Assembly (NCBI RefSeq): GCF_041080625.1
Contig: NZ_CP163518.1
Location: forward strand, 2,666,001-2,730,000
DNA from: Streptomyces sp. CG1
GTDB taxonomy: Bacteria > Actinomycetota > Actinomycetes > Streptomycetales > Streptomycetaceae
DNA: 64,000 bases
Reading direction: 5' to 3'
Below are positions 32,539 through 43,636 of this stretch, piece by piece (the first letter of the stretch is position 1; each line of letters starts with the position of its first letter). The position numbers and the translations under genes were made by a program. The notes beneath the pieces are model-generated. The model saw only the letters and a list, made by a program, of their open reading frames with translations, was not told the DNA's origin and did no database searches.

Positions 32539-33097
32539 TCAGGGGCTGTCTGGAGACTCGTCCTCGACCACATCGTCATCGTCGCCAAAGATCTCATCCA
32601 TGGCCTCCGCCCCCTCGGAGATGACTGGCCGCAGTTGCTTCCGATAGACCCTCTCCGTCGTTCCACTGCCGTTGTGCCCAACGAGACGCGAGATCACTTC
32701 GATCGGGATCCCGTGGTCCGACAGCACGGACACGAAGCTTGTGCGTAGCTCACGCGGGGTCCACTCCTTCGGGTTCTCGAAACCAGCCTCCTTGAGCAGA
32801 GTCCTGAAGTTCCGGCGCACGTCCAAGGCACTGCGGAGTTCACCAGTCTCTGTCGGGAAAACCAGTCGCTCATCGGTCCACTCATCGCCTGCAGCGAGGC
32901 ACGCAGCCTGTTCGCGACGCTTGTGAGCCCTCATGACCGTGACGGTTTGCTGCGGCATGGCCAGCGAGCGTCTGCTCTTCCGGGTCTTCGTGTCGCCATG
33001 CCGACGTACCGAGCGCCACACGTCCACGTGCGGCTTCTCCTTTCCTGAGCGTGTCAGGTGGACGTGCGACCAGGTCAGGGGCCGTGCCTCCGGTCAC
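32539..33097 (-). pseudogene. Tyrosine recombinase (integrase), C-terminal fragment
   Basis: The reading frame holds the C-terminal catalytic half of a phage/AICE-type integrase: LTWSHV, KTRKSRRSLAMP (catalytic Lys region), TPRELRTSFVSVLSDHG (Arg box II), SRLVGHNGSGTTERVYRK (His and Tyr). It is open up to about 33095, where the expected family sequence (RPEEARxLTW) is cut at PEARPLTW by the end of the IS256-family element. The N-terminal part is not found on the other side of that IS, so more than a simple insertion happened. Confidence 0.85.
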
Positions 33098-34516
33098 GTC
33101 CGCTGAAGTGGTGTATCGACGGCCACTCGGTGATCTCTTCTTTGAGGCTATGCGGTGAGTTCGGTGGGCAGGACGGTCTCGTCGGTTTCTGACTCGATCG
33201 GGTGGAGGCGGGCCTTGGCGAGCAGGTCGAGTCCCATGTAACGGCGGGCTTGGGTCCACTCGTCGTTCTGCTCGGCCAGGACCGCGCCGACCAAGCGGAT
33301 CAGAGCGGTGCGGTCGGGGAAGATGCCGACCACGTCGGTGCGGCGGCGGATCTCCTTGTTCAGCCGCTCTTGCGGGTTGTTCGACCAGATCTGCCGCCAG
33401 ATCTCGCGCGGGAACACGGTGAACGCCAGCACGTCGCCCTGGGCGGCGTCCAAGTGGGCTGCGGCCTTGGGGAACTTGGCTTCCAGGGCATCCAGCACGT
33501 GCCGCATCTGGGCCTGGACGGCGTCGGTGTCGGGCTGTTCGAAGACGGTCCGCAGCAGCGTGGCCACCCAAGGCTGGGCCGACTTGGGGACCTGGCTCAG
33601 CAGCGCGCGGGCGTAGTGGGTGCGGCATCGCTGCCAGCTCGCGCCGGGCAGGGTGGCGCCGATCGCGTTGACCAGGCCCATGTGCGCGTCGGAGATGACG
33701 AGTTGGACGCCGGACAGGCCGCGGGCGATCAACGAGCGCAGGAAGGCCAGCCGGCCGGCGCCGTCCTCGGCGGTGGCCACGTCCAGGCCGAGGATCTCGC
33801 GGTGGCCGTCGGCGTTGACGCCGACCGCGATCAATGCGTGGACGTTGATGATGCGGCCGCCCTCGCGGACCTTCTGCGTGAGCGCATCCACCCAGACGAA
33901 GGCGTAGGGGCTGGCGTCCAGGGGTCGGTTACGGAACGCGGCGACTTGCTCGTCCAGATGCTTGGCCATCGCGCTGACCTGGGACTTCGACAGCTGGGTC
34001 ACCCCGAGCGACTCGGCGAGCTTCTCGACCCGGCGCGTGCTCACGCCCAGCAGGTAGGCGGTGGCGACCACCGAGATCAGGGCCTGCCCGGCACGCCGAC
34101 GGCGTTCCAGCAGCCAGTGCGGGAAGTAACTCCCGGACCTGAGCTTGGGGAATGGCGAGTTCGACGGTGCCGGCCCTCGTGTCCCACTCGCGCGGGCGAT
34201 AGCCGTTGCGGTGGTTGACTCGCTCGTCGCTGACCTGGCCGTATTCGGCGTTGCAGAGGGAGTCGGCCTCCGCGGACATGAGCGCGTCGGCGAATGTCTT
34301 GACCATCGCGCGCAGCAGATCGGGACTCGCCGCGGCGAGGTTGTCTTCCGCGAGGGCGTGCAGGGGCAGACTGTCGGGTGCGGTCATCGTGCTGATCCCC
34401 TTCGTGACTCGACATCTCGAAGATCAGCCGGTGGCCGTTCTTGTATCCGGGCACTCACTCCGACGCCGGGGAAAACGCCCGGATCAGGTGGGAGCCCGTA
34501 CACCACTTCTCAGGAC
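33098..34516. mobile_element. IS256-family insertion sequence
   Basis: An element of about 1.42 kb. Both ends carry GAAGTGGTGTA in inverted orientation (33105-33115 and complement near 34499-34509), with GTCC a few bases outside each. A transposase gene on the minus strand fills it. It sits inside the integrase gene on the left. The exact ends and the target duplication could not be fixed by eye because the right flank does not continue the integrase. Confidence 0.75.
33148..34387 (-). pseudogene. IS256-family transposase with a one-base frameshift
   Basis: The N-terminal part runs from ATG 34387 (MTAPDSLPLHALAEDNLAAA) to AIP near 34150. The remaining chain, with DDE residues in FVWVDAL, VISDAH and NPQERLNKEIRRR, continues in the next frame from about 34145. 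One extra C in a CCCC run (plus strand GGGG near 34147) explains the shift; removing it restores the usual PKLRSGSYFPHWLLERRRRA. It may be inactive, or the run may be a sequencing error or a slippery site. Confidence 0.8.
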
Positions 34517-35028: not shown

Positions 35029-35543
35029 CCCCAGCCCAGCACGACGGACACAGTTGCCGGGGCTCGCGCAGTGCGACCAACGCACCGCCAGCCCATCATG
35101 TAGCTCTGGCCGGCCGAAAGAGCGCCTCTGACTATGCTGAGCCGAGTTTGTCAAGGTGGCCCCTTCTCCTGACATCAGCGTCTGACACCAACAGGTGCGA
35201 ACAGCGGCGATCGACGTCGGATGCGAGCGGACGGCCAACCGAGGGCGTAGGCCCGGATGACCAATGTCGACAGCCCCCGTGATCGACCTGATAAGGATGA
35301 GGTCAGACCTCAAAGCCTTGGCCTATGCGGGCGCCCGCCGGCCTCACCATCGGCCGGCGCCCGTCGCGTTGACCCGGTCATTGAGACTCCGCCGACCGCG
35401 TGACTCACCATCCGAACCCGCGGGCGTAGCCCCGAGTACGACCCTGACGCGCCCGTGCTGCTCGAGGGCAGCACGACCCTGGACACTGAGGGCGCATAAG
35501 ATCAGCGCCTTACCAGGATTAGAACGGGCCGAAGGCGGTCAGG
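35029..35543. other. Non-coding stretch in the island
   Basis: No gene is supported. TGACATCAGCG followed by TCTGACACCAAC at 35164-35190 resembles the left ends of the 127-bp elements at 37163 and 40607 but lacks their right end and hairpin, so it may be a degraded third copy. Confidence 0.35.
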
Positions 35544-36140
35544 ATGGATGCCCTCTCACAGTTGGTGACGATTGCGGCCGTGCTTCTGGGGTCGTTGATG
35601 ACTTTCGTCACCAACCAGTTGGCGGAGCGGAGCAAACGGCGTGAGACTCGGCGCGTTCGCTGGGATGAGAAGAAGCTCGACACATACACCGACTACATCA
35701 GCAAAGTGCGTGCCACCATGGCCGCCAACGTGGTGGTCTACAAAGTCCGCAAGGGCCTACGGACCATGTCGCGAAGCGAGGAGGACGTACGGCTGGACCT
35801 CACCCAAGCAGGGACTGCGCAAGCAATCGCCTTTGAGCGGGTAATGCTCCTGGCCGGGGATGACGTGGTCGAAGCAGCCCACGCCGTACAAGAAACGACG
35901 GCCGCTTTCGGAGAAGTAGCGCGGGGGGACGCGGATGACACTCCGGACGAGTGGGGAGCTCTTCACAGCGCAGCGTTCCATGCCATCAACCAGTTTCACG
36001 AGCGTGCGCGAATAGACCTAGGTGTCAGCGGAGGCTTCCGAGGCGAGCGGCACTCAGCCCGTGGTGGCCTTCTGCCACTTGAGAGCGGAAGTGGCGAAGC
36101 AAGCCCGAGCGCCCCAGGGCCCGCAGAGGAGACACGCTAG
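35544..36140 (+). CDS. Membrane-anchored protein of unknown function
   Basis: A 198-residue protein with one N-terminal membrane helix (about 5-25, LVTIAAVLLGSLMTFVTNQL) and then a long charged helical region (about 26-140), probably a coiled coil. The tail is low complexity, rich in Gly/Ser/Glu. No family recognised. Base composition is less biased than in chromosomal genes. Layout resembles the gene at 39553-40077 (helix near the start, then helical stalk). Confidence 0.55.
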   Translation: MDALSQLVTIAAVLLGSLMTFVTNQLAERSKRRETRRVRWDEKKLDTYTDYISKVRATMAANVVVYKVRKGLRTMSRSEEDVRLDLTQAGTAQAIAFERVMLLAGDDVVEAAHAVQETTAAFGEVARGDADDTPDEWGALHSAAFHAINQFHERARIDLGVSGGFRGERHSARGGLLPLESGSGEASPSAPGPAEETR

Positions 36141-36328
36141 AGAGAAGATCAGAAGTTGCCCGTAAGCCAGCGGTTCGGGACAAATAGGACGTGCCAGATC
36201 GTACGGGGAACTGCGAGGAACACCGGGGAATCAACGAACACGCCACCAGGCATCGACAACCTTCCGCCGCAGGTCAGCCCCGCAATAAGCCCTAGATCAC
36301 CTCAGCTTCCCAAGCCAAGGTTTCACCC

Positions 36329-36913
36329 TCACACCTTTGGAAGCAGTGGCTCGTGCTGGTGCCAGATCAAGTACCGGTCTTCTCGACGCAACTCTGCGGA
36401 GCCCCATTCGATGCGCATTACGCCGTCCCCCATGGAGCAGGCGTAGGCGACGAGGACGAGTCGCACGTCTTCGGGAAGCAGCTCCAGGTCGGGATGCACC
36501 TCGGAGTCGTCGAGGTCTCCCCAATCCAGGTCAAACGGTTCCTGCATGGGCGGCGGGCCATGGCGACGGATCAAGTCTGCTCGAAAGCCTGTGGCCCGCC
36601 GGAGGCGTGCAGCCGTAACGGGCACGTCCTTCTTCGCGTAGCGGAGGGGGTAGATCAGGCACCCGCGGATGAGCATCATCGTTCGTCCCTGTAGGCGCAC
36701 TGCGTCCCCGAGACTGTCGAGGCCGGCGGCCAGTTCCTCATACTGCACCGCGCAAAGGCCGTGTCCGTAGGCTTCGAGCGTCTGGGTATGGACGCCTTCA
36801 TGTCCGGTGCGGGCCCGCTCGTGAGCCCGGACGAGGCAGGCCGGGATGATGTCCACCAGCTCACCGGCGGATTCTCCGAACGTCTCACTTGCCCATCGAC
36901 TGGCTGAACCCAC
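36329..36913 (-). CDS. Hypothetical protein
   Basis: A 194-residue protein from a GTG at 36913 with AGGGAGGGG upstream at good spacing; longer reading to 37030 has no such site. The chain is mostly helical and includes RHGPPPMQEPFDLDWGDLDD and ends VMRIEWGSAELRREDRYLIWHQHEPLLPKV. There is no signal peptide or membrane helix. Not assigned to any family. Likely cargo of the island. Confidence 0.55.
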   Translation of the reverse strand: MGSASRWASETFGESAGELVDIIPACLVRAHERARTGHEGVHTQTLEAYGHGLCAVQYEELAAGLDSLGDAVRLQGRTMMLIRGCLIYPLRYAKKDVPVTAARLRRATGFRADLIRRHGPPPMQEPFDLDWGDLDDSEVHPDLELLPEDVRLVLVAYACSMGDGVMRIEWGSAELRREDRYLIWHQHEPLLPKV

Positions 36914-37393
36914 GACGTACCGCCCCTCCCTGGTGGTCCTGGAGCACAGCGCCGAGCAGCGTCCGCCCAGACCGTGCTGTCCCCCTGGCGCATCACGCAA
37001 GGTGGCACCCAGCGCACAGGGGGAGCGCACGTCACCTGAGCGGGGCGCATCGCCGGTGCCGCTCGGTCAATCAGCAGCTGGAATTGCGGTGATAGCGGCA
37101 CGGCCAGCCAGAGCCGCAAACGACTGTTCAGCAGGTCGACTCGGTGGAGCTTCGCTACACCCTCTGACATCCACGGCTGACATCAGCGGGGCCGGACAGC
37201 AGCAGACTTTGGCGTGCGTGCGCGGCATTGAGCTCCCTGCCCTGCCAGGAGCTCAATGCCACCTGATCGAACTCCTAAAGAAGTGGTCGCCGTAACGGGG
37301 GCGCAAGACCGGGCGGCCGCATCGATGAACGGTCCTACAGTAGTCCCGGTAGACACCAACACGGCTTGCATACAGGCGCGCACACCCGATCCA
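36914..37393. other. Intergenic stretch holding 127-bp element A
   Basis: No gene is supported. A 24-codon plus-strand frame ends at 37165-37167 (VDSVELRYTL) exactly where element A starts and could be a gene remnant. The rest is element A and the 3' flank of the LanC gene. Confidence 0.4.
37163..37289 (+). repeat. 127-bp hairpin element, copy A
   Basis: The first 23 bp and last 25 bp (37265-37289) are identical to copy B at 40607-40733, and total length is the same, 127 bp. The middle differs and holds a perfect 13-bp stem, GGCATTGAGCTCC (37224-37236) with its complement at 37248-37260, loop of 11. Function unknown. Confidence 0.75.
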
Positions 37394-38692
37394 TCACGAC
37401 ACGGCGTCAGTGCCACAGCGTCGGATCCTTGCCTGAGCGGGCACCGGAGGCTGGTCCGGCCAGGCGAACGCGTACCGGGGATCGTCCCCGCGGCTCAGCC
37501 GTACGAAGCGCAGGAGTTCGCGGACGATGCCCGCGTTGCCCATCGCCCACCCGGTGCACGGTTCGAGGTCGCTCGGGGTGGCCCGGTGCTCAGAGTTGGA
37601 CCAGCGAGCGCCATCACTGTCCCGGATCGCGCGGGCGGCGAGATCCGCGACGAGGACGTGGGCGAAGTCGTATGGGTCGTGCTGTTCGGCGATCCGGTCG
37701 CAGGCCAGGGCGAGGACGCCCGCGGTGCCGCAGCAGCGGCCGTTGTTGTCCCAGAAACCGGGGCGTAGCCGCTGGGGCAGGGCGGAGTGGGTGACCGTGT
37801 GCCAGCAGCGGTCGGTGAGGGCGGGCCAGACGGGGTCGGCTGTGATGTCCCGCAGCAGCCGGAAGACTTGGGCGTCGCCGGCCGGGCCGTGGCACCAGCC
37901 GTAGCTGATGGGCTCGATCACATCGGGTCGGTACTGGGGGGTCGAGTGCGGCACCAGGAAGCCCTCCGGCCCGGCTTCGTCGCGCGCCACGACGTCTGCG
38001 GCACCGGCCAGCGCCAGCTCGACCAGGTCCGCACGGCCGGTGGCTTCGCCGACCCGGGCAAGCGCCAGGACGATGCCGAGCGTGCCGTGCGAGATGTGAT
38101 GCAGACGGGAGTCGATGCCCGTGCGGTGGGCCCAGTGGACGCCCGCCGGGGTCTGCTCCGCCGTGCGCAGATACGGCTCCATGGCGAGGACGGCCAGTTC
38201 GGCGTCGCCGGCCAGGAGTGCCCCGAGGCCGATCCCCGCGTTGCCGCCCATCAGCTCGAACAGTTCGCCCCAGCGGGTGCCGTCGAAGCGTGACCGCACG
38301 AGTTGCAGCGCGCGGTCGGCGGCGGCGCCGGCGGCCGTGTCGCCGAGTTCTTCGTGAAGGGCTCGCAGGACGAGCGCCATTCCGGTGCGGCCGAAGTAGA
38401 GGGAGTCGTCGTCGATGCCGTCGACGGAGTCCGCAAGGCTGCGGGCGGCGCGCAGGGCGGCGTCGGCGTAGGAGTCGTCGCCGAAGTGCCGCCACGCCTC
38501 CAGGAGCACAGGGACGTTCCCGGCCGTACCGCTGTAGAGCATTGGGGTGAGCTCGTCGTCCGAGGGCCTGGTCGACCAGGCGAGGCCTCCTTCGAAGGTT
38601 CCTCGCGCCGCCTCGGTCAGCCACCGCAGCCCGTCCACCGCGAGTCCCTCGACCTCATCGACCACCACGACCGTGGCTTCTGGTGCCGTCAT
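37394..38692 (-). CDS. LanC-like lanthionine synthetase/cyclase with CCG motif
   Basis: A 432-residue alpha/alpha-barrel protein of the LanC family, which binds zinc and adds Cys thiols to dehydrated Ser/Thr to make lanthionine rings. Zinc ligands are Cys267 in GWCHG and Cys320-Cys321 in RCCG, where classical LanC has Cys-His (CHG). GLG/GGNAGIG repeats mark the barrel. ATG 38692 follows GAGAGTGGG. No precursor peptide, dehydratase or protease gene is found nearby, so it is an orphan and may work with genes elsewhere or be a remnant. Confidence 0.82.
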   Translation of the reverse strand: MTAPEATVVVVDEVEGLAVDGLRWLTEAARGTFEGGLAWSTRPSDDELTPMLYSGTAGNVPVLLEAWRHFGDDSYADAALRAARSLADSVDGIDDDSLYFGRTGMALVLRALHEELGDTAAGAAADRALQLVRSRFDGTRWGELFELMGGNAGIGLGALLAGDAELAVLAMEPYLRTAEQTPAGVHWAHRTGIDSRLHHISHGTLGIVLALARVGEATGRADLVELALAGAADVVARDEAGPEGFLVPHSTPQYRPDVIEPISYGWCHGPAGDAQVFRLLRDITADPVWPALTDRCWHTVTHSALPQRLRPGFWDNNGRCCGTAGVLALACDRIAEQHDPYDFAHVLVADLAARAIRDSDGARWSNSEHRATPSDLEPCTGWAMGNAGIVRELLRFVRLSRGDDPRYAFAWPDQPPVPAQARIRRCGTDAVS

Positions 38693-39057
38693 GGGCCCAC
38701 TCTCGCATGATCTTCCAGACCCGCCCAGAGGGCAGTTGCGCTCCCCAGGACCCTTGGCCGCCGCACCACAACCGCACCAGATCGGGCGGGGAATAACGGG
38801 GAACCACGGTGAAAGCAGCCAAGCCACCGAGAGGCCGCAGCCAGTCATTTTTCCAGGTCAGCGTCCAAGACAGCCACGAATGATCGCAGCTTCCCAAGCT
38901 GAGGGCTCCAGCACCGTTGTCACGGGTCGGTCGTCATGTCTTGCTCCGGTCGACGGCACAACCAGCGTGGCTGAGCCAGGTCGGGGGGCCACGAAACATA
39001 CGCGCGCCCGGACCGTCGGCGTGCCCACCGCCGTGGCTGACTGTCGTCGGCTCGGGT
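38693..39057. other. Gap upstream of the LanC-like gene
   Basis: I looked for a short lanthipeptide precursor on both strands and found none with a ribosome site and Ser/Thr/Cys-rich core. An 80-codon minus-strand frame (38655-38897) overlaps the LanC start and is Trp-rich without a start signal. Nothing else is visible. Confidence 0.4.
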
Positions 39058-39400
39058 TCAGACCTGGGTCCGCCGCACGCCAGTGCACGCGATCGACCTG
39101 CTGCCGTCCTCGGTGAGAAACGACATGAACGTCCAGGAGCCATCAGCAGCCCTGATCTGCCCCAGACGAACCGGCTGCTGATGCCGGCCAAGCAGTTCCA
39201 CGGCGCGTTTCAGGTTCTTTGGTCTCGATGCCCTGGCGGCGTGTGTGCAACAGTCGGCGCCCATACATGAGGGCGCGCGGCTCAGCAAACGTAGTCCCGT
39301 CCCGGACCTCGTGGGAAGCGCCGCAGCGGAGCGCGGCCAGAGCAGCCACGGACGTCTCGTCGTTGCCCACCGGGAGCCGTTCGAGTAGTTCCCGCTCCAT
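39058..39400 (-). pseudogene. Small hypothetical gene broken by a one-base shift
   Basis: From ATG 39400 the frame reads MERELLERLPVGNDETSV to LLHTRRQGIETK, then would go on as a nonsense tail. Deleting one A of the AAA run (plus strand TTT, 39218-39220) joins it to KNLKRAVELLGRHQQPVRLG and TGVRRTQV in the next frame, giving a coherent protein of about 113 residues. Family not recognised. Confidence 0.5.
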
Positions 39401-39552
39401 GCGCTGCCACCCCCACCGTGATCCTGCTCTACAGCAGCCGGATACAGCGATCACAGCCCCTCTTATAGCTTCCCGATTAGACAGGAAGCAACAGCACTGC
39501 AGGCAGTTAGGCAGTCTGGACCGACGGCTTCTGCTACAGCGAAGGCGGCCGT

Positions 39553-40077
39553 TCAGCCCTGACCTGAGTCGGGAGATGGGACATGCAGGAGCACATCGTG
39601 TTCTTGACCCTCCCACTTCACGTGCAGGACGGTCGGCTGACGCCACCAGTTGCCGAGCTTGATGAATTCGCCCTCCCCGGGTCGCAGGACCAATGGATCA
39701 CTCCCGTCACCCGCCACAGTGCTACCCAGAGCCCAGGCTTGTACGTTCACTGCCGTTCCAGGCCCGTCGTTGCGCAGTAAGTATTGGTGTCCATGCAGGC
39801 TGATCAGGCTGAAGCTTGGCTCGGGAGAGACCACTCCGTTACGTCGGTCCTCCGCCTCCTGCTGCTGCAACGCCAAAGCATCAAGCACAGCTTGGGCTTC
39901 GGTACGCTGCAATGCCAAGGCGTCGAGCGCGGCTTGGGTCTCGGTACGCTGCAAGTCCAGCGCTTCGAACGCGGTATCAGCTGAACGCTTGCTGTCCTTG
40001 CGTGCCAGCACGGCCACCCACGTCGCCGCAATGGTCACGAACAACGCAGCCCACGTCTGCACATCCGTCCAGCTCAC
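39553..40077 (-). CDS. Membrane-anchored coiled-coil protein with tandem repeats
   Basis: A 174-residue protein from GTG 40077 behind GGGGGGG. Residues about 6-24 are a membrane helix. Then come three near-identical 13-residue units (ALDALALQRTEAQ and variants) that form a coiled coil, and a beta-rich C-terminal domain (HGHQYLLRNDGPGTAVNVQA) like those seen in many bacterial hypothetical proteins. No family name assigned. It shares its layout with the gene at 35544-36140. Confidence 0.6.
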   Translation of the reverse strand: MSWTDVQTWAALFVTIAATWVAVLARKDSKRSADTAFEALDLQRTETQAALDALALQRTEAQAVLDALALQQQEAEDRRNGVVSPEPSFSLISLHGHQYLLRNDGPGTAVNVQAWALGSTVAGDGSDPLVLRPGEGEFIKLGNWWRQPTVLHVKWEGQEHDVLLHVPSPDSGQG

Positions 40078-40440
40078 TTTGCCCCCCCCAGCAAACGCCC
40101 ATCGAACTGCCCCGACAGAGCCGTCTCCCCACCCGGAGACGCAACCTGTGCAACAAATGCGTGCCCAGAACTGCGAACGGGCCCATGGAACCACTGCTTG
40201 TCCCCGCTGAGTTCATTTCCGCCCGGCAGGCCGACGACACCTCGGTATCGCTGGGACGGGGTCGAACTCACCGGACCTCCTGCCATAACTCGGCGGAGAG
40301 TGAGTCCGGCGCCTCCGCTTCGATCGACGCGTACCTGTCGTCTCCTCCACTCGCGCGACGAGCCCGACGGCGAACAGCCGGGCAGCGATGGCCACCGCGC
40401 TAACTCCCGAACCAGGCACAGGGCAGCCTCCGTCACCGTC
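40078..40440. other. Gap with gene remnants
   Basis: No intact gene. A plus-strand frame runs through 40200-40400 and stops, and may be the decayed upstream part of the GntR fragment that follows, but the amino acid pattern is not convincing. Confidence 0.3.
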
Positions 40441-40586
40441 GATCACTTTCAGCAAATCTTGCCGCGCTCGTCACGCACATCCGGCGGACGTACTACAGCG
40501 ACCAGGGGCGGCCCGTGGAGACGGCGGATATCGTGGTGCCCGCCGCCCATTGCGAGATCGTCTATGAGATCCCGATCAACCGTTAG
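40441..40586 (+). pseudogene. GntR/UTRA regulator, C-terminal remnant
   Basis: The plus frame ending at TAG 40584-40586 reads HIRRTYYSDQGRPVETADIV and then VPAAHCEIVYEIPINR, which is the usual end of a UTRA effector domain. No winged helix is found upstream in any frame. Copy B of the 127-bp element starts 21 bp after its stop. Confidence 0.5.
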
Positions 40587-40606
40587 CCGCTGCTCACAAC
40601 GCGACT

Positions 40607-40733
40607 TCTGACATCCACGGCTGACATCAACGAGGCCGGACGGCGGCATACAGCAGCGCCCCTGAGCGACCGTCGGACCGGCCGACGACGGCTCCAGGGG
40701 CGGGCGTAGATCGAACTCCTAAAGAAGTGGTCG
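40607..40733 (+). repeat. 127-bp hairpin element, copy B
   Basis: Same length, same first 23 bp and same last 25 bp (40709-40733) as copy A. The middle forms a different hairpin: CGCCCCTG (40657-40664) with CAGGGGCG (40695-40702) outside, CGTCGG (40671-40676) with CCGACG (40682-40687) inside. It lies upstream of the FkbM gene. Confidence 0.75.
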
Positions 40734-40743
40734 ACGGCAGCCA

Positions 40744-40757
40744 CGTTGACGTCAACG
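40744..40757. promoter_or_regulatory. Palindrome upstream of the FkbM gene
   Basis: CGTTGACGTCAACG is a perfect 14-bp palindrome, 54 bp before the FkbM start. It looks like a regulator site and contains a TTGACG hexamer. No regulator is assigned. Confidence 0.4.
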
Positions 40758-40810
40758 CCGGCGGACAGGGGCAGACAGTAACGGCCCGGTACGACTAAGG
40801 TCACCGGCCA

Positions 40811-41743
40811 GTGACCTCCCCCGCCAGGGCACCTGTCACGGTTATGACAACGGGGTGGCGCCACACCCTGTGGATCAGGGACGCGGACGAAGTGAAGCCT
40901 GCGGGCTGGATTGTTGACTCCAACCCTGATAAATCACTTGTCATGGTCATGAATACGATTGGACTGCACAGTATCAATCGTTGGGAGGCGTCCTTCCTGC
41001 GCGAGGAGGTGGGCGGCTACTTCACCCACGGCGTCGAGTGCACGCCGGGCGCGACGGTACTCGACGTAGGCGCCAACATCGGCGTGTTCTCGGCGGCCGT
41101 CTATGAGCGGCTGGACGGGGACGTGCGGATCTACGCCTTCGAGCCGGTGCCGCCACTCCACGCGACACTCGAACGCAATGCCCGCGAGTTTTTCAACGGA
41201 CGTCTGACCGCGCTCCCTTACGGCCTGGCGTCCCGTGACGACGAGCTCGATTTCAGCTACGTTCCGGCCGCCACGATCTTCTCGTCCTCCTCGCGGGATC
41301 AGGGGAACATCGAGGCTGAGCGGCGGCGGGTCACCGCCAGCGTTGTCGAGATGATCCGCCAGGGCGGCCTGGGACCGGTCCTGCGCCGCGTACCCGCCCC
41401 CATCCTCACTCTTCTCGTCAGCCGCAAGCTGCGGGTGATGCGGCGGCTTGAGACGCACCGGGTGAAGGTCAGGCCCCTGTCATCAGTGCTCGACGAGCAG
41501 GGCATCGACCACATCGACCTGCTCAAGGTCGATGTGGAAGGCGCCGAACTCGATGTGCTCAGAGGCATCGAGGAACGGCATTGGCCGCTGGTCCGCCAGG
41601 CCGTCGTCGAGGTGGAGCGCTGGCAGCAGAACCGCGACACAGTCTGCGAGGTCCTCCTCACGCACGGCTTCACGGTCATCACCGAGCAGGACCCGGTCCA
41701 GCAGGCCGGCGACATTGGCATGGTGTTCGCGGTCAGGCCCTGA
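40811..41743 (+). CDS. FkbM family methyltransferase
   Basis: A 310-residue SAM-dependent O-methyltransferase. ATVLDVGANIGVFSAAVYE (motif I, about 77-95), YAFEPVPPLHATL and LLKVDVEGAELDVLRGIE (about 239-256) are the FkbM signature. Substrates in the family are often sugars or natural products. GTG 40811 has AAGG ten bases upstream; ATG 40844 is an alternative. Element B and a palindrome lie upstream. It is not in operon with the LanC-like gene, which is on the other strand. Confidence 0.88.
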   Translation: MTSPARAPVTVMTTGWRHTLWIRDADEVKPAGWIVDSNPDKSLVMVMNTIGLHSINRWEASFLREEVGGYFTHGVECTPGATVLDVGANIGVFSAAVYERLDGDVRIYAFEPVPPLHATLERNAREFFNGRLTALPYGLASRDDELDFSYVPAATIFSSSSRDQGNIEAERRRVTASVVEMIRQGGLGPVLRRVPAPILTLLVSRKLRVMRRLETHRVKVRPLSSVLDEQGIDHIDLLKVDVEGAELDVLRGIEERHWPLVRQAVVEVERWQQNRDTVCEVLLTHGFTVITEQDPVQQAGDIGMVFAVRP

Positions 41744-42047: not shown

Positions 42048-43133
42048 TCAGTCCTCCATGATGGCCAGGCTCCAGCACCAGCCGGACAGTTCCCGGGCGA
42101 CGGCCACCGCGCTGACGGTGGAGCGTTTGCGGCGCGCGTCCAGGTTGGTCCAGCGTTGGTGGAGACGACGGTTGCCCTGCTCGGCGCGTTGCCGGACCGG
42201 GGCGGGGGCCTGGTCGAGCCGGGCGCGCAGGGCGACACCGGGGCGCCGGTAGGGCCGGCGGTGGTGCCAGGCCGTCTCCACCAGCAGCCGTCTGGCGTGG
42301 GTGTTGCCGGTCTTGGTGATGCCGCCCTGTCGGCGCTGGCTGCCGGAGGAGTCCTCGCAGGGCACGAGCCCCAGGAAGGCACCGATGGTCGAGCCGGTGA
42401 AGCGGTGCCAGTCACCGATCTCGACGGCGAGGCCGAAGGCTGTGAGCGTGCCGACCCCGCGCAGGCAGGACAGGCGGGCCACGACGGGTGCCCAGGCGGG
42501 CTGCCCGGCGAGCTTGGTGATGGCCGCGTCCAGCCGGGTTCGGCGTGCTTCGAGGGCCAGCACCGTCTCCAGTGCCTCGTCATAGGCCACCCGCAGTCCC
42601 AGCTGTTCGAAGTGGTGGCTGGTCAGCCAGTGATGGTGGACCGCCGTCCAGGCTTTGCCGTCGGTGTAGATGACGCCCTGGCGCAGCAGCAGTTTGGACA
42701 GGCGGTGGCGGGCCCGCATCAGATCGGCCCGCACATCGTCGCGGGCCCGGGCCAGGTCCCGGGCGGCCTCCTGCTCGATGGCGGGCACCCGCACCGCGGG
42801 CAGTTCGTCCAGGTGCAGGAGCTTCGCCAGCCGCTGGGCATCGCGCTTGTCGGTCTTGACCCGGTCCCCGGCCGGCCGCTCCATCTTCGACGGGGCCGCC
42901 ACCACACACCGGATGCCGATCTCGTCCAGGGCCCGGGCCAGCACGAAGCCAGTCGGCCCGGCCTCATAAGCAACAGCGGCCGGCTGCGGCAGAGCCTCCA
43001 CCCAGGCCACCACATCGGCGGTGTTCGCAACGAGGCGCTCGCTGAACACTTCGCCGGTCTCGTAGTCCAGTGCCCAGGCCGTGGTAGAGCGGGCATGGAC
43101 ATCCAGGCCGACCGAAGTACGCTCGGAAAACAT
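42048..43133 (-). CDS. IS110-family transposase (DEDD recombinase)
   Basis: A 361-residue protein. The N-terminal RuvC-like domain has VGLDVHARSTTAWAL, VAYEAGPTG and KTDKRDAQRLAKLL (the DEDD residues). The C-terminal domain has FLGLVPCEDSSGSQRRQGGI, which holds the conserved nucleophilic Ser. ATG 43133 follows GGGAGG. It is full length and open, so it may be active. IS110 elements are guided by a bridge RNA encoded next to the gene. Confidence 0.93.
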   Translation of the reverse strand: MFSERTSVGLDVHARSTTAWALDYETGEVFSERLVANTADVVAWVEALPQPAAVAYEAGPTGFVLARALDEIGIRCVVAAPSKMERPAGDRVKTDKRDAQRLAKLLHLDELPAVRVPAIEQEAARDLARARDDVRADLMRARHRLSKLLLRQGVIYTDGKAWTAVHHHWLTSHHFEQLGLRVAYDEALETVLALEARRTRLDAAITKLAGQPAWAPVVARLSCLRGVGTLTAFGLAVEIGDWHRFTGSTIGAFLGLVPCEDSSGSQRRQGGITKTGNTHARRLLVETAWHHRRPYRRPGVALRARLDQAPAPVRQRAEQGNRRLHQRWTNLDARRKRSTVSAVAVARELSGWCWSLAIMED

Positions 43134-43636
43134 CCGGTGCCTCCCGGTAATTGCGGCACTACCCGCCACTGTGCCCACCGGCAGGCAACCCGCGTCAACT
43201 TACGCGAGGGGCATCGGTCTTCGACTCCCGGACAGCCACGGCTACCGCCGCTTCATACGGTCTAACCACGCGCAGCACCCGGCACTCGATTGTCAACGGA
43301 CATGCCGATCCCCCGGCCGGGCGGGGCTCACGGGGAGGGATCCTCGACGCCGGGGGAGTAACGGCAGGAGGTCAGCCCACGGCACACAACCCCAGGCCAC
43401 CCCGATGACCACCTGTCGCGCGACATCCTCTGGTTCTGCCTGCTCTTAGCAATCCCGGCATCGGGGAGCGCCCACCCCTTCGACGACAGCCTCGATGGCG
43501 TCCGGACCGAAGAGCAGCCGTGATAGCCGGCGGGCTCACGAGGGCATCGCTCTCTCTTCTGTCCTCCCGACCGAGCATGAGGCATCCAGCGAAGGAGAAC
43601 CCGGACTATGTGTCCGGGCGTACCTACCAGGCTCGG
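43134..43636. other. Upstream region of the IS110 gene; candidate bridge RNA locus
   Basis: About 500 bp without a supported gene, lying upstream (in transposase orientation) of the IS110 gene. In IS110-group elements the bridge RNA is made from the non-coding end before the transposase gene, so it should lie in about the first 200-300 bp here. I cannot delimit the element end or the RNA by eye. A plus-strand frame near 43400-43500 is open but has no start. Confidence 0.35.

Follow-up and report, generated by a model that had tools for sequence, protein, structure and literature searches.

In a stretch of Streptomyces sp. CG1 DNA of 64,000 nucleotides (the window), two copies of a 127-bp sequence lie on either side of a LanC-like gene. 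We asked what these copies are, and whether they behave as a structured RNA, as the ends of an insertion sequence or as recombination sites bordering gene cassettes.

Anatomy of the two 127-bp copies

Both copies (sites A1 and A2, Table 1) are 127 bp long, lie on the + strand and are identical over their first 23 and last 25 bp, as the original prediction had described. With up to 3 mismatches allowed, probes of 21 and 18 bases representing the ends matched nowhere in the 64-kb window but at A1 and A2 (expected numbers, 0.00 and 0.01). In each site, two TGACATC arm repeats (period, 13 bp) are separated by a spacer from a core that matches the tRNA-Arg(CCT) anticodon loop.

The strong-looking hairpin at the centre of each copy had suggested a structured RNA element with variable, unrelated hairpins. 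The hairpins do differ between the two interiors, but neither is unusual for its composition. Folding z-scores against shuffled sequences were -0.9 and -1.6 on the + strand and -1.8 and -0.4 on the - strand, and the interiors are less unrelated than claimed, both copies being members of a family with a moderately conserved spacer. Rfam gave no match at gathering thresholds, and the proposed covariance check, run with RNAalifold on 48 aligned copies (46 of 52 listed copies, a list that includes one copy from the window, together with A1 and A2), returned 0 consensus base pairs. Conservation sits mainly in the direct repeats and the tRNA core, and we regard a structured RNA as extremely improbable.

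The right end had also been likened to the terminus of an IS256-type element at ~33.1-34.5 kb. By eye, GAAGTGGT (8 bp) is indeed common to the right end and an inverted repeat of that element, but the likeness goes no further. The copies have no terminal inverted repeats, since the left end, TCTGACATCC, does not match CGACCACTTC, the reverse complement of the right end (by eye). The right end consists of a tRNA-anticodon core, and since GCGGTGGTC or GCGGGTGTC stands at this place in many relatives, the IS256 likeness is most likely a coincidence, and 29 of 88 related copies continue into a tRNA 3' half. That the copies are IS or MITE ends related to this element is accordingly given next to no probability.

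Integron attC sites have ends with RYYYAAC/GTTRRRY motifs. By inspection, the 127-bp unit starts with TCTGACA and ends with GTGGTCG, and the consensus fold is absent, so an attC site was rejected. A single integrated element at a tRNA gene was also rejected, because no tRNA gene was found within the surrounding 140 kb (contig 1, positions 2630001 to 2770000).

Sites with the same arm in related genomes

The same arm was found in 87 GTDB stretches (88 occurrences), of which 86 are titled Streptomyces and one Micromonospora; some genomes are represented by two or three stretches each, and two stretches (L011 and L071) are neighbours on one contig. The arm sequence was set by the search itself, and its perfect conservation is therefore not evidence. 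At E <=1e-5, with at most two candidates scored per genome, 139 of 392 Streptomyces genomes carry a copy.

In the census of the 88 arms (loci L007-L093), an intact tRNA adjoins 11; a core and a tRNA 3' half follow 29, and a core and other DNA 28; another 18 have no recognisable core and 2 are cut off. Of the 57 scorable copies, 53 have an arm-to-core distance of 103 bp. The copies in the 48-copy alignment and the position matrix had been picked for the 103-bp distance, so the absence of indels there is no independent evidence; independent support for constant spacing comes from the census. The Arg-CCT cores read CTCCTAAAG, and the 29 with a tRNA 3' half run on into the T-loop.

Eight of the 11 tRNA-adjoining arms precede a frame that ends like a tyrosine integrase (by eye). 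According to Pfam, the arms are followed by an integrase, an HTH_17 protein and RepSA (PF20199) at locus L035, and by an integrase and RepSA at L007. With an integrase and a pSAM2-type RepSA, these two loci are AICEs. In relatives, and not in the window, the site is thus linked to a tyrosine integrase, and the same arms are present on the other side. The two linked integrases scanned scored 35.6 and 58.1 bits against the integron-integrase model TIGR02249, for which the cut-off is 265.

For the Gly family, 30 loci with a tRNA-Gly(CCC) 3' half were compared, 6 of which lack an intact tRNA. All 6 carry a G-type match ahead of this displaced half; arms accompany 5 of these matches but not the sixth (L179). 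In the other loci of the 30, the G-type match is absent or weak (E 3e-4 or weaker). The reversed-sequence control of the site profiles gave no match below E 0.6. When the 87 loci were probed with tRNAs of their own genomes, leaving out matches within ARAGORN-called tRNA genes, 116 matches (73 excluding Arg-CCT) fell on the strand of the A site, 6 on the opposite strand and 1 in the reversed control; a few of the 116 (e.g., at L063 and L078) are tRNA genes that ARAGORN missed.

The array in the window and its shared segments

Five co-oriented sites lie head to tail at 35169-40733, in the order Ile, Gly, Arg, Gly, Arg and thus with three specificities, and one or a few genes separate neighbours (Table 1). 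A possible degraded third copy, noted earlier at about 35164, proved real: it is site I, of tRNA-Ile type, whose arm-to-core distance of 114 bp is 11 bp longer and is equalled in L093.

Table 1. Features of the site array (positions are those of the window)
Feature	Position	Strand	Details
Site I, tRNA-Ile(GAT)-type	35169..35305	+	arms TGACATC/TGACACC from 35170; core GATCGAC-CTGATAA-GGATGAGGTCA; 7-mer 35288-35294
ORF, 198 aa, between I and G1	35544..36140	+	no Pfam or NCBIfam match
Possible tRNA-Pro(CGG)-type core directly before G1	36174..36191	+	3 mismatches in 18
Site G1, tRNA-Gly(CCC)-type	36190..36320	+	CGGGGAAC-like arms; core CAGCTTCCCAAGC; 7-mer 36307-36313
ORF, 233 aa, between G1 and A1	36329..37030	-	no family match
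Site A1, first 127-bp copy	37163..37289	+	arm repeats 37165-37171 and 37178-37184; spacer; core 37265-37289; 7-mer CTCCTAA 37272-37278
LanC segment common to genome G353	37286..38906	+	89.6%; right half of A1 core to end of G2; flanks unrelated
LanC-like gene	37394..38695	-	PF05147 (Pfam)
Site G2, tRNA-Gly(CCC)-type	38762..38905	+	7-mer TTCCCAA 38891-38897
Unit D, 120-bp conserved unit	38941..39061	+	companion of many G-type sites
ORF, 213 aa, between G2 and A2	39553..40194	-	no family match
C-terminal remnant of GntR/UTRA regulator	40404..40586	+	L054 homologue has both domains
Site A2, second 127-bp copy	40607..40733	+	arm repeats 40609-40615 and 40622-40628; core 40709-40733; 7-mer CTCCTAA 40716-40722
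Partial A-like arm unit just right of A2	40745..40857	+	precedes other DNA in other genomes

The core of site I matches the genome's own tRNA-Ile(GAT) in 17 of 18 bases and that of G2 the own tRNA-Gly in 16 of 18. For the two Arg cores, agreement with the tRNA is 14 of 18 bases and covers the loop and the bases immediately following; the DNA on the right of these two cores is GAAGTGGTCG, not a tRNA 3' half. The Pro(CGG)-type core is weak, with 7 real versus 5 reversed-control matches at its threshold in the window; Pro-type cores occur in other loci.

No complete integrase or rep was recognised among the window ORFs scanned (without a traB-specific profile), and the one integrase recognised there is the C-terminal part of another kind of tyrosine recombinase. 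A complete AICE, with int, rep and traB between att sites, was thus not found in the window, which has only the GntR remnant and this unrelated fragment. A genome search for an A-type integrase gave no long match above ~40% identity and one 50-aa stretch at 76%. Comparison of the right flank revealed no clean empty site; breakpoints fell at 40747 and 40865-40877, right of A2, and the FkbM gene is present in several genomes without the array.

In related loci, neighbouring sites were co-oriented in 60 of 60 pairs, with a median gap of 1.3 kb (47 of 47 for G versus A); this count leaves out D matches, matches of <=80 bp, and loci L003-L005 and L094 onward. Three of the 60 pairs (L046, L055 and L073) resemble the two ends of one element. 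Gaps were gene-free in 30 of 60 cases with strict GC3-based calls and in 11 of 60 with relaxed calls, so that per-gap gene counts are rough. A Pfam scan covered 34 of the 92 predicted gap ORFs, picked mainly by length, and 20 of the 34 reached a curated cut-off; the L054 GntR, also one of the 92, was scanned in addition. The cargo of such arrays and of decayed elements includes SRA-HNH, DarT, GIY-YIG and LanC, among others.

Segments of such arrays recur in other genomes. Besides the LanC segment, whose left end in G353 has no recognisable core, a free comparison identified 36190-37181 at 89% in genome G146. That match begins where G1 begins and stops within the A1 arm, 39 bp short of the end of the G146 contig. 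Loci L027 and L036 share a segment from about core to core, with both flanks differing. The left ends of shared segments in the free comparison lie at -143 to -16 relative to the site end, somewhere within the site, and the segments shared by L023/L069/L057 and by L046/L057 have no recognised core at their ends. Two segments (LanC in G353; L027/L036) are thus shared from about core to core.

Origin of the array

The copies are very probably the distal halves of lambda-type att sites used by pSAM2-like AICE integrases, and the five such sites in the window an accretion array. Site anatomy, the constant distance, the tRNA identity of the cores, the integrase/repSA linkage in relatives, co-orientation and the two segments shared from about core to core form the basis of this model, and the site array, shared segments and arm/core/tRNA counts likewise uphold the earlier suggestion of recombination sites bordering cassettes, with the LanC gene between the copies. 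Against it stand the lack of a complete integrase beside the array and of a tRNA gene in the surroundings, the non-tRNA DNA right of both Arg-type cores, the differing cores of neighbouring sites, the shared segments that end at no known core, and the 18 of 88 arms without a recognisable core. The integrase would hold the two arm repeats with one domain and, across a spacer of ~80 bp that is presumably bent, cut the core, whose 7-bp overlap would correspond to the tRNA anticodon loop (CTCCTAA for the Arg-CCT type), where strands would be exchanged. Integration would restore the tRNA at one end of the element and leave the arm, spacer, core and displaced tRNA 3' half at the other. Successive insertions at the cores, probably followed by loss of AICE backbones, would have built the array and left cargo genes between the sites.

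Passages of PMC3218068 and PMC9513070 describe AICEs of the pSAM2 kind (int-xis-repSA) with att sites in tRNA genes, as well as accretion or tandem occupation of tRNA-Arg by AICEs. As in these elements, the same arms adjoin tRNA genes and are followed by an integrase and RepSA (L035 and L007). Unlike them, the window array has no complete integrase or recognised rep/tra, lies far from any tRNA gene, and alternates three specificities with one or few genes between neighbours. Anticodon-centred attachment sites in tRNA genes correspond to subsite A of Islander, as outlined in part of PMC4383910. The crossover region likewise centres on the anticodon loop, with displaced 3' halves in the 29 copies noted above; in contrast to subsite A as outlined there, non-tRNA DNA lies right of the core in 28 of 88 copies and in both window copies. 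The Islander filters given in that part demand an integrase and >=2 kb, and segments as short as these would fail them. Like cis-mobilizable elements and decayed AICEs (DAICEs), the array holds cargo between att repeats and no integrase, but its specificities are mixed, its sites are co-oriented and two cargo segments are shared from about core to core. A literature search below full-text level found no description of mixed-specificity arrays with so little between the sites.

Given att sites, the array may be a graveyard, its segments being leftovers of large deleted AICEs that travelled only with whole AICEs, and we lean slightly towards this view. AICE decay that leaves cargo between direct repeats, and accretion at tRNA-Arg, are described in passages of PMC9513070; moreover, the GntR/UTRA remnant precedes site A2, and the genome has no close full-length integrase. 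Opposed to it are the two segments common to different genomes with both flanks differing, and small elements, bounded by an intact tRNA and a displaced half, in which no integrase is visible. One example, at L013, is a 1.4-kb element with a Pro-type core inside (integrase judged from the ORF list, by eye).

We consider it rather unlikely that the sites form an integron-like system of independent origin, in which resident AICE integrases would act in trans to shuffle small gene cassettes, each ending in an arm-and-core site with a tRNA anticodon-loop core, within mixed-specificity head-to-tail arrays, and would also recombine cores of unlike tRNA type. Such a system would explain the one shared direction of the Arg-CCT, Arg-ACG, Gly, Pro, Thr, Ile, Ser and other sites. 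Like integron cassette arrays, the sites stand head to tail, often with a single gene between them and with varied cargo. Unlike integrons, they are arm-and-core DNA sites with tRNA-derived cores instead of attC-type folded sites, and the two linked integrases scanned are of AICE type, far below the integron-integrase cut-off. Because neighbouring cores differ (CTCCTAA versus TTCCCAA), LanC-type segments do not represent simple excision by a single integrase; a simple one-gene-cassette reading was therefore rejected and survives only as a case of the integron-like system. Judged from sequence, present-day mobility of the window array is doubtful.

With distal att-site halves as the preferred reading, the far ends of these elements, otherwise hard to see, can be found from the arm sequence together with the 103-bp distance. 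Genus-wide mapping of accretion arrays and decayed elements, with a listing of their cargo, would become possible. If the segments move singly, this would amount to integron-like gene exchange in a major antibiotic-producing genus, and would offer ready-made sites for genetic tools.

Anatomy of the 127-bp units

As originally noted, the two copies of the unit, A1 and A2, each measure 127 bp on the + strand and share identical ends, of 23 bp on the left and 25 bp on the right. Probes for these ends, with up to 3 mismatches allowed, matched the 64 kb only at the two copies (expected, 0.00 and 0.01). Searched against one genome per GTDB species, the arm, TGACATCCACGGCTGACATCA, has exact matches in 87 stretches; the title is Streptomyces for 86 and Micromonospora for 1. 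Among the 88 arm occurrences, 11 have an intact tRNA gene within 130 bp, 29 have a core running into a tRNA 3′ half including the T-loop, 28 have a core followed by other DNA as in the window, 18 are without a recognisable core, and 2 are cut off. When the CGAACT-like core hexamer was sought 90 to 125 bp from the arm start, 53 of 57 copies had it at 103 bp, two at 102 bp, and one each at 104 and 97 bp. Forty-eight copies, picked for the 103-bp distance, could be aligned over 127 bp; conservation peaks at two TGACATC repeats, whose 13-bp separation is fixed by the search, and at GATCGAACTCCTAAAGCGG.

The proposal that the unit is a structured RNA was abandoned. The hairpins in the middle parts do differ between the copies, but the folding is not unusually good for the composition; RNAalifold gave 0 base pairs common to the 48 aligned copies, and the window had no Rfam family match at gathering thresholds. 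The unit thus has the anatomy of a DNA site touched at arm and core, a constant distance apart, and not that of an RNA.

The core's 7-mer, CTCCTAA, is the tRNA-Arg(CCT) anticodon loop. In other copies the 7-mer is CTTGTAA (Thr-TGT) or CTTACAA (Val-TAC), and these continue into the corresponding tRNA 3′ halves. Both Arg-type cores in the window match the genome's own tRNA-Arg(CCT) at 14 of 18 bases, and to their right lies AGAAGTGGTCG, not a tRNA half. Earlier papers describe tRNA attachment sites centred on the anticodon (PMC4383910), actinomycete integrative and conjugative elements (AICEs) in tandem in tRNA-Arg (PMC3218068), and AICE accretion and decay (PMC9513070), whereas our literature searches found neither the arm nor the 103-bp distance described, nor co-oriented arrays mixing several tRNA specificities.

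The array in the window

A possible degraded third copy near 35164 proved to be real (site I). Its arm and core hexamer are separated by 114 bp, which exceeds 103 bp by 11 bp, about one helical turn, and a related locus (L093) has the same Ile type and the same spacing. From the loop at 35288, 17 of 18 core bases are identical to the own tRNA-Ile(GAT). Blast of the DNA between the sites uncovered a second family, G, with CGGGGAAC-like arms and the core CAGCTTCCCAAGC; from the loop at 38891, the G2 core matches the own tRNA-Gly(CCC) at 16 of 18 bases. With the third copy real and two G-family sites in between, the order is I - G - A - G - A from 35169 to 40733, with every site on the + strand (profile search). 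Beyond the array and a partial A-like unit, matched at 40745-40803, no profile match was found in the remaining window or in 76 kb of flanking DNA; the reversed-sequence control gave nothing below E 0.6. Of 30 fetched loci with a tRNA-Gly(CCC) 3′ half, 6 are without an intact tRNA, and all 6 have a G-profile match before the displaced half (E 2e-7 to 2e-28; arms in 5, L179 being without); in the other 24, the match is absent or weak (E 3e-4 or weaker).

Attachment sites and neighbouring features
Feature	Positions	Strand	Description
Recombinase fragment	32539-33027		C-terminal, tyrosine recombinase of another family
Transposase fragment	33929-34387 (ORF)		IS256-type (Mutator), PF00872; near recombinase fragment
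I	35169-35305	+	tRNA-Ile(GAT)-type; arm 35170, core hexamer 35284
G1	36190-36320	+	tRNA-Gly(CCC)-type; blast of intervening DNA, profile
A1	37163-37289	+	tRNA-Arg(CCT)-type
LanC segment	37286-38906		Right half of A1 core to end of G2
G2	38762-38905	+	tRNA-Gly(CCC)-type; blast of intervening DNA, profile
Unit D	38941-39061		Conserved, 120 bp
Regulator remnant	40404-40586		GntR/UTRA C-terminus, before A2
A2	40607-40733	+	tRNA-Arg(CCT)-type
Partial A-like arm unit	40745-40857		About 110 bp, right of A2
Transposase-like ORF	42048-43178		IS110-type (by eye); near right end of array

In the window and in two other genomes (G011, G255), the partial A-like unit lies upstream of an FkbM gene, but in G243 and G117 other DNA follows it; the unit may be a promoter that contains repeats resembling the arm. 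In many loci unit D is found before or after G-type sites, and in some cases it continues straight into a G-like arm whose core is a different one.

Linked integrases and arrays in related loci

At 8 of the 11 arms with an intact tRNA (L007, L022, L033, L035, L049, L062, L082 and L090), the tRNA is followed by a terminator-like hairpin and an opposite-strand frame ending, by eye, like a tyrosine integrase. In L035, the integrase (PF00589, PF14659) is followed by a small HTH_17 protein, which occupies the xis position, and then by a pSAM2-type RepSA (PF20199); L007 has integrase and RepSA, the latter with E about 1e-152 in both loci. This set is an AICE replication and integration module. Since the same arm lies beside the tRNA and integrase and at the distal site, the proximal and distal arms have the repeat in common, as expected of a lambda-type site; judged from sequence, arm binding is putative. 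In Micromonospora sp. RHAY321 (L055), the A arm adjoins tRNA-Val(TAC); about 2.4-2.6 kb further come another pair of arms and the displaced 3′ half of a tRNA-Val. In the own genome, C1:4541745-4569780 (L097, L098) has an intact tRNA-Arg(CCT) and, 28 kb downstream of it, a displaced 3′ half; the TGACATC arm was not recognised there, and the stretch is probably an element that uses a different integrase.

Orientation was counted in the 38 loci that have at least two sites, using matches over 80 bp and excluding D matches. All 60 neighbouring pairs have the same orientation, 3 of them (L046, L055, L073) resembling two ends of one element, and G sites are oriented as the A site in 47 of 47 cases. 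Gap lengths lie between 7 and 6135 bp, with a median of 1.29 kb; rough ORF calls place one gene in 26 of the 60 gaps and none in 11. Probes from own-genome tRNAs (loop + 11 bases, up to 2 mismatches) matched the A-site strand of the 87 loci 116 times, 73 excluding Arg-CCT, including Gly-CCC (17), Arg-ACG (13), Pro-CGG (11), Arg-CCG (6), Thr-TGT (5), Ile (5), Ser-GGA (4) and Arg-TCT (4); the other strand gave 6 matches (5 of one Ser type) and the reversed sequence 1. Some gaps hold additional cores and are thus subdivided. A tRNA-Arg(ACG)-type core lies within a few bases upstream of the A arm in L009, L014, L023, L060, L069, L077, L085 and others, so that two sites of different specificity abut. 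A dense array in Streptomyces stelliscabiei (L071:600-3421), with single ORFs between sites, runs from a G-arm site with an Arg core through a Ser-like core (by eye), an Arg site and a Pro-type core to an Arg site carrying a displaced tRNA-Arg 3′ half. Recombination between unlike cores would explain why different specificities point one way.

Shared segments, cargo and present activity

Two related loci, L027 and L036, have 731 bp in common at 91%. The common stretch starts about 20 bp to the left of the G core, spans the A site and ends at GATCGAACTCCTAAAGC; beyond it, one locus enters tRNA-Arg and the other different DNA, and no match was found upstream of it. The LanC segment is 89.6% identical to that of another genome (G353), with unrelated flanks; the core at its left end is not recognisable in G353. 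Eighteen other LanC loci fetched match in the gene and at most about 100 bp alongside, and have no att match. Genome G146 shares the segment with the 233-aa ORF; the match begins where G1 starts and reaches into the A1 arm. Other segment pairs start somewhere inside an attachment site, with unrelated upstream DNA and no recognised core at their right ends. These sequence comparisons are taken as evidence that insertions and exchanges occur at attachment sites; solo movement of each segment is not proven.

Pfam was run on 34 of 92 predicted gap proteins, and 20 of the 34 reached the cut-off: SRA-HNH, GIY-YIG, T5orf172, DarT, GYD, two polyketide-cyclase-like proteins, GSDH, YunG, PA14, a beta-lactamase-fold protein, a sigma factor, LysR and others. 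As cargo, the window carries a LanC-like protein along with unnamed ORFs. The GntR/UTRA remnant, of which the version in L054 has both domains, is a sign that an AICE formerly ended at A2. There is no tRNA gene in contig positions 2630001-2770000, the nearest listed being tRNA-Leu at 2619447. An A-type integrase has 13 matches in the own genome; identity does not exceed about 40% in any of the long ones, and reaches 76% in one 50-aa stretch. Without the arrival of a helper, the array is probably dormant.
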